Of a stretch of 64,000 bases of DNA, positions 51,345 to 60,427 are shown piece by piece. Under the pieces are notes generated by a model. It ran no database searches. It was not told the origin of the DNA and saw nothing but the letters and a program-made list of their open reading frames with translations. A program made the position numbers and the translations under genes. Position 1 is the stretch's first letter, and every line of letters starts with the position of its first letter. Origin of the DNA: an uncultured Halocynthiibacter sp. (lineage in GTDB: Bacteria; Pseudomonadota; Alphaproteobacteria; Rhodobacterales; Rhodobacteraceae); contig CANNCD010000001.1 in assembly GCA_947503035.1 (NCBI GenBank), positions 744,001 through 808,000 on the forward strand. The letters are read 5' to 3'.

Positions 51345-52727
51345 ATGTGGGGCGGCCGCTTTGAACAAGGCCCCGCAGAAACAATGGAAGAGATCAACGC
51401 TTCCATCGACTTCGACAAACGGCTCTATAAACAAGATATCCTTGCCTCACAGGTCCATGCGCAAATGCTGGGCCGACAGGGGATTATCTCGGACGATGAT
51501 GCCAAGGCGATTGTCGGCGGTCTGGACACCATTCGTGCGGAAATCGACGCCGGTGCGTTTGAATTCAAACGCTCGCTTGAAGACATCCACATGAACGTCG
51601 AGGCGCGCCTGTCGGACCTGATTGGCGCCCCTGCGGGACGGCTTCATACCGCCCGCAGCCGCAATGATCAAAGCGTGACAGATGTGAAACTGTGGCTGCG
51701 CGATAAGATCGATGAAATCGACGGGTAATTGTTGATGCTGATCGATGCCTTGATCACCAAGGCCGAGGCAAATGCCGACACACCTATGCCGGGTTTTACC
51801 CATTTGCAGGTGGCGCAACCGGTATCCTTTGGCCACCATCTTCTTGCCTATGTGGAAATGATGGGCCGCGATCTTGATCGTCTGCGCGATACACGACGGC
51901 GCCTGAACGAAAGTCCACTGGGTGCGGCGGCGCTTGCTGGCTCGCCCTAGCCGATTGACCGGCATTGGACCTCGGACGAGCTCGGGTTTGACCGACCAAC
52001 CGAAAACTCGATGGATTCCGTTTCCGCACGCGATCACGTGACCGAATTTTTGTTCTTTGCCTCAATGAATGCTGTGCATTTGTCCCGTCTGGCAGAAGAA
52101 GTGGTCAACTGGAATTCAGATGGCTTTAAATTCGTGAACCTGACGGATGCCTTTACGTCCGGCTCGTCGATCATGCCGCAAAAGAAAAACCCCGATGCCG
52201 CCGAACTGTTACGCGCGAAACCGGGTCGGATCATTGGGTCGCTCAACGCCTTGTTGATCGTCATGAAGGGTCTTCCTTTGTCGTTCATGAAAGACATGCA
52301 AGAAGACAAAGAACCCATGTTTGACGCGGCGGACAATATTTCCCTGTGCATTCGGGTGGCGTCTGGGCTTATCGATGATCTTGAACCCTACAAAGACAAC
52401 ATGCTGGCCTTTCTTGACCGTGGCTTTGCGACCGCGACGGATCTTGCCGATTGGCTCGTGGTGGCGTTGGATATTCCCTTCCGCGAAGCCCATCACATCA
52501 CAGGCGAACTTGTGGCGTTGGGGATCAAAACGGGGCGTGGCTTGGCGCAAATCCCGCTCAGTGAACTTCAATCCGTTGAGCCGAGGATCACCAATGATAT
52601 TTTCGATGCGATCTCCAACGAAACCTCGCTTGCGGCGCGAAAATGTTTCGGCGGTACCGCTCCCGACAATGTAAAAGCGGCCTGCGTCCGTGCGCGCGAG
52701 CGTTTTCTTTCGCCAAGCAAAGGCTGA
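51345..52727 (+). pseudogene. Argininosuccinate-lyase-like (fumarase/aspartase superfamily) enzyme, two nonsense codons
   Basis: One continuous frame encodes an ArgH-type enzyme: [54 protein letters not shown], and the signature loop GSSIMPQKKNP. It is cut by TAA at 51726-51728 (after KIDEIDG) and TAG at 51948-51950 (within LAGSP*PIDRH). No frameshift is needed. An in-frame leader from CTG at 51315 (TQKIKTANK) resembles the usual N-terminus, so the original ATG may be mutated. In this location a C-N lyase for an aminopolycarboxylate is as likely as a second ArgH. Confidence 0.87.
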
Positions 52728-52730
52728 CCT

Positions 52731-53424
52731 ATGAACTACGAAGACATCCCCTTTTCCCCGAAAAACTTGGCCACGGTGAACGAGACCATGACGTGGCCAG
52801 AGGGGCACGTTCTTTACGCCAGGTTGGGCGGTGAAAACACATACGGGTATTTGTGAACGGCTGCTCAAGGCTGGCCACGAAATCGGGCACCACGGCATGT
52901 ATCACCTCAAGCCGTCATTGGCCGAGCGTGAACGCTCACTCGATGAAATCGATATGGGCTTTGGGGCGATGAAGTCCGAATTGGGCGTCACGCCAACGGG
53001 GTATCGTGCGCCTTTGGGCGAAAACTGCGGCGCCTTCTTGGCCTATCTCCAAGAGCGCAGTATCACCTATTCAAGCTCATGGCGCGATGACGTGATGCCT
53101 TATCGTCATGTCCTTGAGGGTGGCGTGGCTGGCCCGATTGAGCTCCCTGCGAACTATTTCTTTGATGACTGGATGCACAGCATGATCAAAGGCAGCGGGC
53201 GTAATTTCACGGCACCTGAACTGGTTCAATCCATCTGGCGCACCGAGCTTGAGGAAACCCATGATTGGGGGGCACTCACAACGACTGTGTTCCACCCTCA
53301 GGTCTCTGGCCGCCCGTCCCCCTATCGAACCCTGCGGGAGTTTTAGACCTTTGCCAAATCAAAAGACGACCTTTGGATCGCCACCGGCAATGAGATCGCA
53401 AATGCTGTGAACGCGCAGGTGTAA
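52731..53424 (+). pseudogene. Polysaccharide-deacetylase/PuuE-family pseudogene
   Basis: An ATG at 52731 opens about 33 residues (NYEDIPFSPKNLATVNETM...), then the frame is lost near 52830. From there another frame gives THTGICERLLKAGHEIGHHGMYHLKP, the metal-binding HH region of NodB-like deacetylases, running to TAG at 53344-53346 and on to 53424 (TFAKSKDDLWIATGNEIANA). The N-terminal catalytic Asp region, some 60-80 residues, is deleted. Relatives of this type include allantoinase PuuE and cyclic-imide hydrolases. Confidence 0.82.
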
Positions 53425-55469: not shown

Positions 55470-56912
55470 ATGCCAATGATAAAACAACTACCCGTCATTC
55501 TTTGTTTGTCTTTGCTACCCGCATCAGTGGTAAGCTCCGTTAGCGCACAGACCGCCCCCACCTCACTTCGTGATCTCTCTGGGCATGAGGTTGATGAACC
55601 ACAACTCCGGGACGCGGTTGCGTCAAGAACGCTCACTTGGCTGACGGGAACCTCTGCCAACAATGACTATATGTCGGTTGGTAGAATGGCCAACTTCTTT
55701 GGCTTCGTGGCACTCCGCGTGTCCAGCAACCAAAGCTTAACGCGGGCGCATGTTGCGCGCGACACATTGGCAGTTCTTGATCCAGCGGAGTTGGAACACC
55801 TTGTGGCCCTGTTGGACGAACAAATCCCAGCACATGAACAGACGCAAACAGCCCGTGTTCAAATGAACCGTGCACTTGAGATGCTTCTTGTAGGAGAAAC
55901 AGTAGTTGAGGCTGAGTTTCTAGCAATTGGTCGTACATATGGTGCGTCCGAGGCTGAACTTGGGCGCGTCATTGCGCAGACGTTTGGGGAGATCGCCCAA
56001 ACCCTGACACCTAACCAACAAGAAGCGCTTGCCCAGATTCGAACGGCTCATGCCTCGGGCCTTTCAGACACAGTTCCAGTCTCGGACAATCGCGTGAGAT
56101 TACCAGATGTCGATCGTCAGGAACTTGTTAATGTTGCGGCGCGTTTTCTAAGTTGGACAACAGGATCGCCGGAATTCAACGACTTTGAAGTTGTCGGAAA
56201 GCCAAGCCAACATTTCGGATTTGTGAGCCTAAGACTTGCTTCTGGACATGGCGTACGTCGTGGGGCAGTTGCCCGAGAAGTTCTTGATCTACTTACGCCC
56301 CAACAGCAGAAAATGCTTGATGTTGCCGTTCAGCAGAACGTCGAGGCGTTCGGCGACTTTCTCGTGAAACGCGCAGAGCTGATGCGTGTGTTGGAAGTCG
56401 CACTTACGGGCGATATCATTGACACAGAGGCCGTCATGCAATTGGGGGCCGACGTTGGCGAAATCGAAGCCAAGATGACTTGGGCGCAGGCAATGGCCAT
56501 GCTGAACGTGAGGGACGCGCTGTCTGAAGCGCAACTATCAGCCTTGATCGAGATGAGAGCGAAATACACCTTCGCCGCTGATGCAGAAGACGTGCAACAT
56601 GACCCTGTCGAGCTTGGCCGTCAGCTGTTTGCCCAATGTGCTCTGTGCCACGCATCATCAAGGGAAAGCGCCGCTGCCCCAAGTCTCACTGGCGTCATCG
56701 GTCGCGAGATCGCTGCAGACCACGACTTTGATCTGTATTCGCCCGCGCTTTTGGACTTCGGGCAATCTCAAGGCAATTGGACAAATGACCTCTTGAATGA
56801 TTTTCTGAGATCCCCCCGATCCCTTGTACCAGGTACGACAATGGGTTTCGACGGATTTGAGGCCGAGCATGAGCGCGCAGCAATTCTGGCCTATATCGCA
56901 ACACTTAAATGA
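55470..56912 (+). CDS. Secreted cytochrome c with duplicated N-terminal helical domain
   Basis: 480 residues. A signal peptide (residues 6-26) precedes two copies of a ~145-residue domain (about 51-195 and 223-367) that align without gaps at an offset of 172. Compare LTWLTGTSANNDYMSVGRM with LSWTTGSPEFNDFEVVGKP, then FFGFVALRVSS with HFGFVSLRLAS. Each copy has LTxxQ-like motifs (LTPNQQEAL at 179, LTPQQQKML at 275) reminiscent of Spy/CpxP-type periplasmic proteins. The C-terminal ~90 residues are a class I cytochrome c with CALCH at 390-394 and a likely axial Met at 458. I know no named family with this architecture. Confidence 0.8.
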   Translation: MPMIKQLPVILCLSLLPASVVSSVSAQTAPTSLRDLSGHEVDEPQLRDAVASRTLTWLTGTSANNDYMSVGRMANFFGFVALRVSSNQSLTRAHVARDTLAVLDPAELEHLVALLDEQIPAHEQTQTARVQMNRALEMLLVGETVVEAEFLAIGRTYGASEAELGRVIAQTFGEIAQTLTPNQQEALAQIRTAHASGLSDTVPVSDNRVRLPDVDRQELVNVAARFLSWTTGSPEFNDFEVVGKPSQHFGFVSLRLASGHGVRRGAVAREVLDLLTPQQQKMLDVAVQQNVEAFGDFLVKRAELMRVLEVALTGDIIDTEAVMQLGADVGEIEAKMTWAQAMAMLNVRDALSEAQLSALIEMRAKYTFAADAEDVQHDPVELGRQLFAQCALCHASSRESAAAPSLTGVIGREIAADHDFDLYSPALLDFGQSQGNWTNDLLNDFLRSPRSLVPGTTMGFDGFEAEHERAAILAYIATLK

Positions 56913-58139: not shown

Positions 58140-59357
58140 ATGAAACTGACAAAATCTATTTTGACCGCGAGTGCTTTGGCGCTGGCCGCGGGCGGTGTAG
58201 TTCAAGCACAATCACTGTCTTCGGCAGGCGCGCTGGCTTTTGATAATGCCGACACCCTTTTTGTGGGCGATGCCAAGGCCGGTCTGGTCCATGCCTTTGA
58301 TCTTGGTGACGCTCTTGCCGATCAATCTAGCTATCAACTTGGCCGCGCTCAGACCTTTGAGGGGCGCACGATCTTCAACAACCTTGATGTGGAGATTGCA
58401 GCTATCCTGGGTGTTGAGCCTGAGCAGGTCATGATCAACGACATGGTAGTCCATAAACCCAGCAAGCAGATTTTCCTTTCGGTGCATCGTGGGCATGGGC
58501 CAGACGCCGAAGCAGTCATCGTGTCGGTCAACAACGGTGCGCTTGAACTGGTTGATTTGGCTGCCGCTGATCATTCGTCAATGTCTGTCGGGCCTGTGCC
58601 AACCTCTGCCACGCTCGAATTCGGGCAGCCACTCAATACGCTGGCAATTACGGACATCGATTACTACCAAGGCGAATTGCTGGTGGCTGGTGTGTCGAAC
58701 GAAGAGTTCAGTTCCAAGCTGCGGCGGATGCCATTCCCGTTCACCGACGAGATCAGCACATCCTCCATCGAGATTTGGCATGCTGTTCACGCGCAATACG
58801 AGACCCGCGCGCCGATCATCTCGCAGACAGTGGCTGAATTGGACGGTGTTGCGACCTTGATCGCGATCTACGCTTGTACGCCTATCGTGAAGATCCCGTT
58901 GTCTGAGTTGACGGACGGTGCCGAGGTGAAAGGCACGATGATCGGAGAGATGGGCTTTGGCAACACACCACTGGACATCGTGCCCTACGTCAACGCGTGG
59001 GACGGCAGCAGTAATGTTGTGGTGACTAATACCAACCGGTCGGCGGCATCATTGAGCATTGCAGGTCTGACCGCCGCCGAAGCGATGCCAGAGGGTGAAG
59101 GTGTCCAACCCGTATTCTCTGTCGCGGGTGTTGATCAGTTTCCGCTGCCGATGAGCGGAACGCTGCATCTGGATACCTTGGACGAGAACTACGCGGTGGT
59201 CGTACGCACCAGCCCCGAGGACCCGCGCAACATCCAGCTTCACACCATCCCTCTGCCGTTCTTCTTTGATCGGGCGGATCACGTGGTGGAAATGAACTTT
59301 GAAGGCAGCCCTGATCCATTCGGCTACAAGGCAGCGCCTCCGCTTGAGTTCAACTGA
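58140..59357 (+). CDS. Secreted protein, probably beta-propeller, unknown function
   Basis: 405 residues. A signal peptide (LTKSILTASALALAAGGVVQAQ) is followed by repeats of the kind AGALAFDNADTLFVGDAKAGLVHAFDL, SKQIFLSVHRG, ITDIDYYQGELLVAGVSNEEF and TLIAIYACTPIVKIPLSEL, which suggest four-stranded blades of a propeller. No haem motif or catalytic residues were identified. It is the first gene of the operon, and the next gene overlaps it by one base (TGATG). Confidence 0.75.
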   Translation: MKLTKSILTASALALAAGGVVQAQSLSSAGALAFDNADTLFVGDAKAGLVHAFDLGDALADQSSYQLGRAQTFEGRTIFNNLDVEIAAILGVEPEQVMINDMVVHKPSKQIFLSVHRGHGPDAEAVIVSVNNGALELVDLAAADHSSMSVGPVPTSATLEFGQPLNTLAITDIDYYQGELLVAGVSNEEFSSKLRRMPFPFTDEISTSSIEIWHAVHAQYETRAPIISQTVAELDGVATLIAIYACTPIVKIPLSELTDGAEVKGTMIGEMGFGNTPLDIVPYVNAWDGSSNVVVTNTNRSAASLSIAGLTAAEAMPEGEGVQPVFSVAGVDQFPLPMSGTLHLDTLDENYAVVVRTSPEDPRNIQLHTIPLPFFFDRADHVVEMNFEGSPDPFGYKAAPPLEFN

Positions 59358-60427
59358 TGCGGGCGGTGAAACATCTGGTGCGGCAGGCTTTGCTTGCCGC
59401 ACTCATCGTGCTGCCTCTGCCAGCTTTGACAGAGGTTGCTGCACGCATTGATCATGTGTCCGGAGCCATCATGGTGACAGGCCTTGAGGGTGCAGATCGC
59501 GCCGCATTGCTGGCAACCCCCGAGCTGCTGCGCCTGCAAGTCGCGCGCTTGGACAGCACGCGCGGCATGCCAGTCACCCTTCAAGATCAAGGCGCTGTTC
59601 TGAGTATTCAGCCGCGTTTCAATCTTAAACCAGGGACGGCATATGTGCTCGACCTGAATGGTACGGTGTTAGAAATCTTGCCCCCTGCAGCAGAGACGAC
59701 GGTCCCACGTTTGGTTGGCTTTGCACCGTCTCAGGCGGTTATTCCGGCAAATACGTTGCGGCTTTACTTGCATTTCTCGGAACCAATGGCGCGCGGGCAA
59801 CTCCGTGACGCTGTGGCCTTGCTTGGCCGGGATGGCACAGCGGTACGAAGCCCGTTCCTCAACCTTGAAGCGGAACTTTGGGACCCCAGCCAAACCCGTG
59901 CGACGCTGCTGCTCGACCCTGGACGAATTAAGCAAGGCGTGGGGCCAAATACGCAAGCTGGCGCACCATTGGTGGCGGGCGAAACCTATCGGCTTGTCTT
60001 CTCGGACGCGATGCAAAGTGCGGCGGGCGCCCCTCTTGGGCAAGAAGCCTCGGTTGCGTTTCGGATCGGTGACGCAGAACGGCGCGCGCTTGTCCCTGAA
60101 GACTGGCAAATCCTTGCACCGTCGGCGGGCAGCTACGCACCAGTGACTGTTGCCTTTGACAGGATCATCGATAGCGGAGCCGTCTTGCGGCTGCTCACCG
60201 TGAAAGATCCGCAAGGGGACCCCGTTCGCGGTCAGATCGAAACCGACGGCGGTGGGTGGAGCTTGATCCCGAACCAACCGTGGCAGGGAGGAACGTACAA
60301 GCTGATCGTCGATCCTGAGCTCGAGGATGTTTCCGGCAATACGATTGGGGCAGCTTTTGACGCAGTGACGGGTACCATCGGGGCCAAACAAGAGCCGATC
60401 ACCCTTACTTTCAACATCACGCAATAG
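59357..60427 (+). CDS. Secreted protein with Ig-like domains, unknown function
   Basis: 356 residues. A signal peptide (LVRQALLAALIVLPLPALTEV) is followed by three or so beta-sandwich segments typical of bacterial Ig-like folds: RLVGFAPSQAVIPANTLRLYLHFSEPMARGQL, TYRLVFSDAMQSAAGAPLG and GGTYKLIVDPELEDVSGNTIG. These are the patterns of SbsA-type Ig-like domains (an opposing 'FSEPM...' and 'EDVSGN' pair). It is translationally coupled to the propeller protein, so the two may form an envelope complex. Confidence 0.72.
   Translation: MRAVKHLVRQALLAALIVLPLPALTEVAARIDHVSGAIMVTGLEGADRAALLATPELLRLQVARLDSTRGMPVTLQDQGAVLSIQPRFNLKPGTAYVLDLNGTVLEILPPAAETTVPRLVGFAPSQAVIPANTLRLYLHFSEPMARGQLRDAVALLGRDGTAVRSPFLNLEAELWDPSQTRATLLLDPGRIKQGVGPNTQAGAPLVAGETYRLVFSDAMQSAAGAPLGQEASVAFRIGDAERRALVPEDWQILAPSAGSYAPVTVAFDRIIDSGAVLRLLTVKDPQGDPVRGQIETDGGGWSLIPNQPWQGGTYKLIVDPELEDVSGNTIGAAFDAVTGTIGAKQEPITLTFNITQ

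Follow-up and report, generated by a model that had tools for sequence, protein, structure and literature searches.

A protein with two Spy/CpxP-like repeats and a class I cytochrome c domain, recurrent in Alphaproteobacteria and in a genome of another order

Within the window (the whole stretch of 64,000 nucleotides analysed here) we focus on an open reading frame with an ATG start, at 55470-56912 on the forward strand, which encodes a protein of 480 residues. Its anatomy can be given with high confidence: an extra segment followed by a Spy/CpxP-like four-helix domain, this unit being present twice, and then a class I cytochrome c domain (Table 1). Beyond the signal peptide no further membrane-spanning stretch was seen by eye, so the protein should be periplasmic. 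A literature search of open-access papers found no description of LTXXQ combined with cytochrome c, or of LTXXQ in tandem; the natural association of a Spy/CpxP-like tandem with cytochrome c reported here is real, recurrent and, according to the open-access literature, undescribed.

Table 1 Coordinates of the parts of the 480-residue protein and of the YbhB/PEBP loci of its relatives
Feature	Residues	Position	Strand	Basis
Signal peptide	1-26	55470..55547	+	Direct reading: basic start, hydrophobic core, SVSAQ end
Copy A, unnamed N-terminal segment (WLTG..NND..VG..FFGFVALRVSS)	50-92	55617..55745	+	70% invariant (5 orthologues); outside significant Pfam matches
Copy A, Spy/CpxP-like helical part	93-194	55746..56051	+	LTXXQ in orthologues, HMM, AF2 helices, Foldseek
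Copy B, unnamed N-terminal segment (LSWTTG..FND..VVGKPSQHFGFVSLR)	218-264	56121..56261	+	77% invariant (5 orthologues)
Copy B, Spy/CpxP-like helical part	265-366	56262..56567	+	Profile as copy A; helices in low-confidence full-length model
Class I cytochrome c domain	382-480	56613..56909	+	Pfam Cytochrom_C above cut-off; PDB cytochromes c552, E 2.5e-13
Haem attachment motif CALCH	390-394	56637..56651	+	C..CH in 5/5 fused orthologues, 0/7 unfused relatives
Met458, probable distal haem ligand (PGTTMGF)	458	56841..56843	+	Invariant in 5/5; position as in class I cytochromes c
YbhB/PEBP locus		L058 493-3027		
YbhB/PEBP locus		L059 4270-5307		
YbhB/PEBP locus		L036 9495-10085		
YbhB/PEBP locus		L060 6155-6766		

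The original prediction had proposed a gap-free internal duplication at an offset of 172 residues, and self-comparison confirms it. The best ungapped self-match pairs residues 50-194 with 222-366 at this offset, with a BLOSUM62 score of 187 (next best offset, 36), and the copies, A and B, are identical at 42 of 145 residues without gaps. The two halves match each other by BLASTP at 1e-21; with gaps allowed they score 189, which is 28 standard deviations above 1000 shuffles. The motifs quoted in that prediction are found, WLTG..NND..VG and FFGFVALR in one copy and WTTG..FND..VG and HFGFVSLR in the other, and the LTxxQ-like motifs that it had noticed could be located, two per copy: LDPAE (103-107) and LTPNQ (179-183) in copy A, LTPQQ (275-279) and LSEAQ (351-355) in copy B. 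The first of these lacks its Q in the window protein, while the orthologues have it. The L and Q positions L103, Q183, Q279, L351 and Q355 are invariant in all 12 proteins of both subfamilies, cytochrome-fused and unfused. The tree of the repeats is compatible with one duplication before these two forms split, or with two duplications.

Spy and CpxP, small proteins of a single domain, function as dimers. A divergent four-helix domain of this type (LTXXQ, PF07813) accounts for ~100 residues at the C-terminal end of each copy. With a curated Pfam cut-off of 24.3 bits, two orthologues score above it (G136 27.1, G823 25.8) and two below (L001 21.2, L002 21.6), and the window protein, at 11.3 bits, is also below. 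Furthermore, a repeat profile built from 10 copies, those of five cytochrome-fused proteins, matches CpxP-like proteins of two genomes, G932 (31 bits, model positions 62-148) and G1148 (19 bits, positions 47-151), so that the matches are limited to the last ~90-105 positions; both genes adjoin an OmpR-type response regulator. For the G932 protein, hhalign with a 16-copy alignment gave a probability of 95.8 and an E-value of 7e-9.

An AlphaFold model of one repeat, from an alignment of six rows, has helices at local positions 46-54, 59-94, 101-130 and 135-149, a short-long-long-short pattern, with a pLDDT of about 70-88 in the helical part and mostly below 50 in the N-terminal segment. Searching with this model, Foldseek returned CnrX as the top match; CnrX and CpxP (3itf, 3qzc) made up about half of the first 27 PDB matches and ZraP appeared at rank 50, with E-values of 0.3-1.9 that are weak, as is usual for small helical bundles. 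The repeat profile searched directly against the PDB retrieved only designed or unrelated helical proteins and no Spy, so the structural kinship is drawn from Foldseek and from the profile matches to CpxP-like proteins. The full-length AlphaFold model, made from three sequences, had a pLDDT of 45 and was unusable.

Sequence and fold thus indicate descent of the window protein from the Spy/CpxP superfamily, which it resembles. The kinship suggested in the original prediction holds for the ~100 C-terminal residues of each copy, and what was called there an unnamed domain is, over about two thirds of its length, a divergent form of a named one; the description stands for the N-terminal ~45 residues. 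Shared with Spy/CpxP are the four-helix pattern, long helices with LTxxQ-like positions at their two ends, export, and the profile and fold matches. The window protein differs in having two copies per chain, an extra conserved segment of ~45 residues before each and a terminal cytochrome c, and its divergence puts it below the Pfam cut-off. For that reason, and because its most conserved part lies outside the LTXXQ domain, we do not file it as an ordinary LTXXQ member. A search of the whole window genome with PF07813 returned no protein, the window protein included; an ordinary Spy/CpxP was therefore not detected in this genome.

The Foldseek results also place the repeats in one structural superfamily with CnrX and ZraP (PF13801, Metal_resist), by weak E-values. 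A protein that senses or binds metal like CnrX/ZraP and has gained a haem domain would fit the best Foldseek match and a set of Metal_resist matches, all sub-threshold. We regard this as very improbable, as the family members reach at most 22.7 bits with Metal_resist against a cut-off of 29.2, and no conserved set of metal ligands is present. Indeed, the Spy-like parts of the 12 members contain no invariant His, Cys or Met; the only invariant His of the five fused forms are H194, H248, H260 and the haem residue H394. Moreover, no metal-resistance genes were noticed around the fused genes.

No Pfam family was matched by the N-terminal ~45 residues of each copy (W.TG...ND..VG...FGFV.LR), and neither NCBIfam nor PADLOC had a family covering the doubled module. 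These segments are the best conserved parts of the five fused orthologues, with 70% (A) and 77% (B) of residues invariant, compared with 38% and 39% in the Spy-like parts and 34% in the cytochrome. The pattern indicates that the N-terminal segments perform something specific, and it is unlike that of a generic holdase or of a generic electron carrier. Since conservation is highest in the extra segment and not in the Spy-like fold, the protein may have a main function other than simple Spy-style holdase action. The unnamed segment, conserved above both the Spy-like fold and the cytochrome, marks a putative binding function that seems undescribed.

The same observation bears on the possibility that the protein is purely a holdase serving haem or cytochrome proteins in the periplasm; the Spy-like pair would then shield cytochromes that are unfolded, and the fused domain would be a tethered client or a maturation sensor. 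Spy-type chaperones do bind unfolded clients (PMC8144458), and the module is physically fused to a cytochrome. Against this, Spy action does not require extra conserved segments, and cytochrome-maturation genes are found in none of the neighbourhoods; we find this reading distinctly unlikely.

The class I cytochrome c predicted to follow both copies is confirmed by Pfam Cytochrom_C (PF00034, E 4e-5, 25.3 bits against a cut-off of 21.3), by CALCH and by the candidate ligand M458, both invariant in 5/5 fused orthologues. By its sequence it is an ordinary class I domain. It shares CxxCH, the distal Met and the PF00034 match with the cytochromes c552/c550, of which c552 are its nearest PDB relatives; it differs from them in lying at the C-terminus of a multidomain protein of 480 residues.

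Four full-length fused orthologues of the window protein were found: two in metagenome-assembled alphaproteobacteria (L001, L002), one in the family of the window genome (G136) and one in another order of the same phylum (G823). Over the two-repeat region the five fused proteins are 55-79% identical in pairs. Fusion to cytochrome c is thus recurrent, in five genomes and at least two lineages, as the original prediction had asked to be checked. The module is rare, being present in 2 of the 293 genomes from the window's order (G000, G136) and in 1 of 337 of the class sample; in the phylum sample 4 of 398 genomes matched, two of them through short or CpxP-like matches. G676 and G1485 contain partial or degenerate remnants, which were left out. 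A search of IMG/VR with alignment A1 gave no relatives, and in the plasmid collection relatives occurred in Chlorohelix only.

Third-position GC is 0.505 in the window gene and 0.59-0.64 in its neighbours, a low value as would be expected for horizontal transfer. This value, and the rarity of the gene in the order, would suit an accessory gene that was acquired recently and does little in the window strain. Such an origin without much function is scarcely credible, given that the frame is intact in 5/5 orthologues and that residues are strongly conserved across lineages.

No neighbour gene is common to the five fused loci. At the window locus a MerR gene lies upstream (Pfam match), together with what we take by eye to be an SDR gene, and downstream is a presumed LysR gene. 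Also by eye, the neighbours appear to be methyltransferases in L001, a SnoaL-like protein and a LacI regulator in L002, WYL- and TetR-type regulators in G136, and in G823 an MMPL transporter and a phosphatase/kinase adjoining a formate/nitrite transporter. The fused gene is a solitary unit, and its partner therefore cannot be read from the context.

The fused gene of G823 is preceded, at ~88 bases, by an exact GTAAA-N5-GTAAA (CpxR-type) box, GTAAAATTATGTAAA (L041 9369-9383). About 0.001 such boxes are expected per 300-base upstream region, an estimate from 15 sites in 3.6 Mb that is to be read knowing that several patterns and genes were examined; the genome as a whole shows no enrichment of the box, with 15 sites compared with 24 of the reversed control pattern. 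It may be taken as a hint of Cpx control, suggestive only. The upstream regions of the five fused genes have no regulatory site in common, the CpxR-type box being found in G823 only.

The doubled module also occurs without cytochrome, in seven relatives from Gammaproteobacteria-type genomes and Chloroflexota. Fused and unfused forms are ~20% identical and split with full support in the two-repeat tree, where the cytochrome-fused proteins form one clade, consistent with a single fusion event. By tblastn we found, in Candidatus Chlorohelix allophototropha (Chloroflexota), a hypothetical protein that contains both copies and lacks a haem motif. The Chlorohelix pair (WP_341471924.1 and WP_341471887.1, annotated as hypothetical) is recognisably homologous over both copies, including the PGK..DFFGF and FCPER..YFGGF segments; it differs from the window protein in lacking the haem motif and in its links to two-component systems and YbhB/PEBP domains. 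The first gene directly follows genes for a response regulator and a HAMP histidine kinase and precedes a YbhB/PEBP gene; the second is followed by a YbhB gene. The export signals of the unfused relatives are lipoprotein-like (LITAC, NLFGC) or other.

Profile searches added the remaining loci. The order is doubled gene, secreted protein of ~100 residues, kinase and regulator in G1132 and G1115; regulator, kinase and doubled gene in G1346; and doubled gene with an N-terminal PKD-like part, kinase and regulator in G1459. In G1267 the double copy is fused to a PEBP domain (844 residues), and G1346 also holds a partial PEBP-fused copy. A histidine kinase and response regulator thus adjoin five of the seven unfused relatives (Chlorohelix, G1132, G1115, G1346, G1459), whereas a two-component system lies beside none of the five fused genes. 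As G1132/G1115 and G1346/G1459 are close pairs, these amount to about three independent linkages. Nearness to such pairs is a further trait that these five unfused relatives share with Spy/CpxP. At four loci a YbhB/PEBP domain (PF01161) is fused to the doubled module or encoded directly downstream of it (Table 1); this link recurs in Gammaproteobacteria-type genomes and Chloroflexota. The small protein that G1132/G1115 encode between the doubled gene and the kinase gene (L049 8031-8342, counterpart in L046/L050) is secreted, has ~103 residues with several cysteines, and has no significant Pfam match.

For the fused protein, the main rival explanation is a dedicated electron carrier, whose doubled Spy-like module would serve as a docking arm to one oxidoreductase or terminal oxidase, with no chaperone or sensing role. 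Its cytochrome is closest to the c552/c550 electron donors, its N-terminal segments are conserved as a specific interface would be, and no stress genes lie near the fused gene. The cytochrome is, on the other hand, among the least conserved parts, no oxidoreductase gene is common to the five neighbourhoods, and the unfused relatives retain the whole module without haem. We judge it unlikely, more so than the reading below.

The best explanation, which we favour at somewhat less than even confidence, is a Spy/CpxP pseudo-dimer formed by a single periplasmic chain that also carries a redox domain, acting in envelope or oxidative stress. E. coli Spy is a four-helix cradle dimer that binds unfolded clients and is induced via CpxAR and BaeSR (PMC8144458), and the duplication makes an internal pseudo-dimer plausible. 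The mechanism in its particulars, like the redox-linked sensor or chaperone role put forward in the original prediction, is more tentative still. By analogy with separate chains of Spy or CpxP, the copies probably pack against each other as a single-chain pseudo-dimer, and the two conserved N-terminal segments would form a face that binds a partner or ligand specifically. Through the haem domain this module is probably coupled to the periplasmic electron-transfer chain, so that electrons could be fed to or drained from the bound partner, or the module could be made responsive to the redox state; the protein would then be part of envelope or oxidative-stress handling. Spy is itself a target of methionine oxidation in chlorite stress, which impairs it and is repaired by MsrPQ (PMC12503329), a precedent for redox relevance.

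A wider proposal covers the unfused relatives: a tandem Spy/CpxP-like family in which the duplicated 'FGF' segments would be a dedicated site and the effectors interchangeable (a neighbouring two-component kinase, YbhB/PEBP or cytochrome c), the cytochrome branch being a soluble, redox-responsive, haem-bearing Spy in envelope stress. As a whole it is doubtful, about as much as the electron carrier. DbfQ of Vibrio cholerae, a small periplasmic protein encoded beside the DbfRS two-component system, directly binds its histidine kinase (PMC12714742); its likeness to the unfused relatives is an analogy only, and Spy, CpxP and LTXXQ do not figure in that paper. The partners (two-component systems, PEBP, cytochrome) point to signalling. 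A natural single-chain double Spy/CpxP would offer a ready test case for the dimer-cradle model, and the haem on the doubled module a direct handle on whether periplasmic proteostasis could be wired to electron transfer.

Other features of the window were noted. A frame of 461 codons (51345-52727, forward strand), which we take by eye to be argininosuccinate-lyase-like (argH), is interrupted by two stop codons in frame, TAA (codon 128) and TAG (codon 202), and looks like a pseudogene; it is adjoined by a polysaccharide-deacetylase-like frame (52831-53346) that is apparently cut N-terminally. On the same strand, 58140-59357 encodes a secreted protein of 405 residues with no significant Pfam, NCBIfam or PADLOC match, and overlaps the start of a gene for a Big_5 Ig-like protein (59357-60427, forward strand), with which it may form a two-gene unit.
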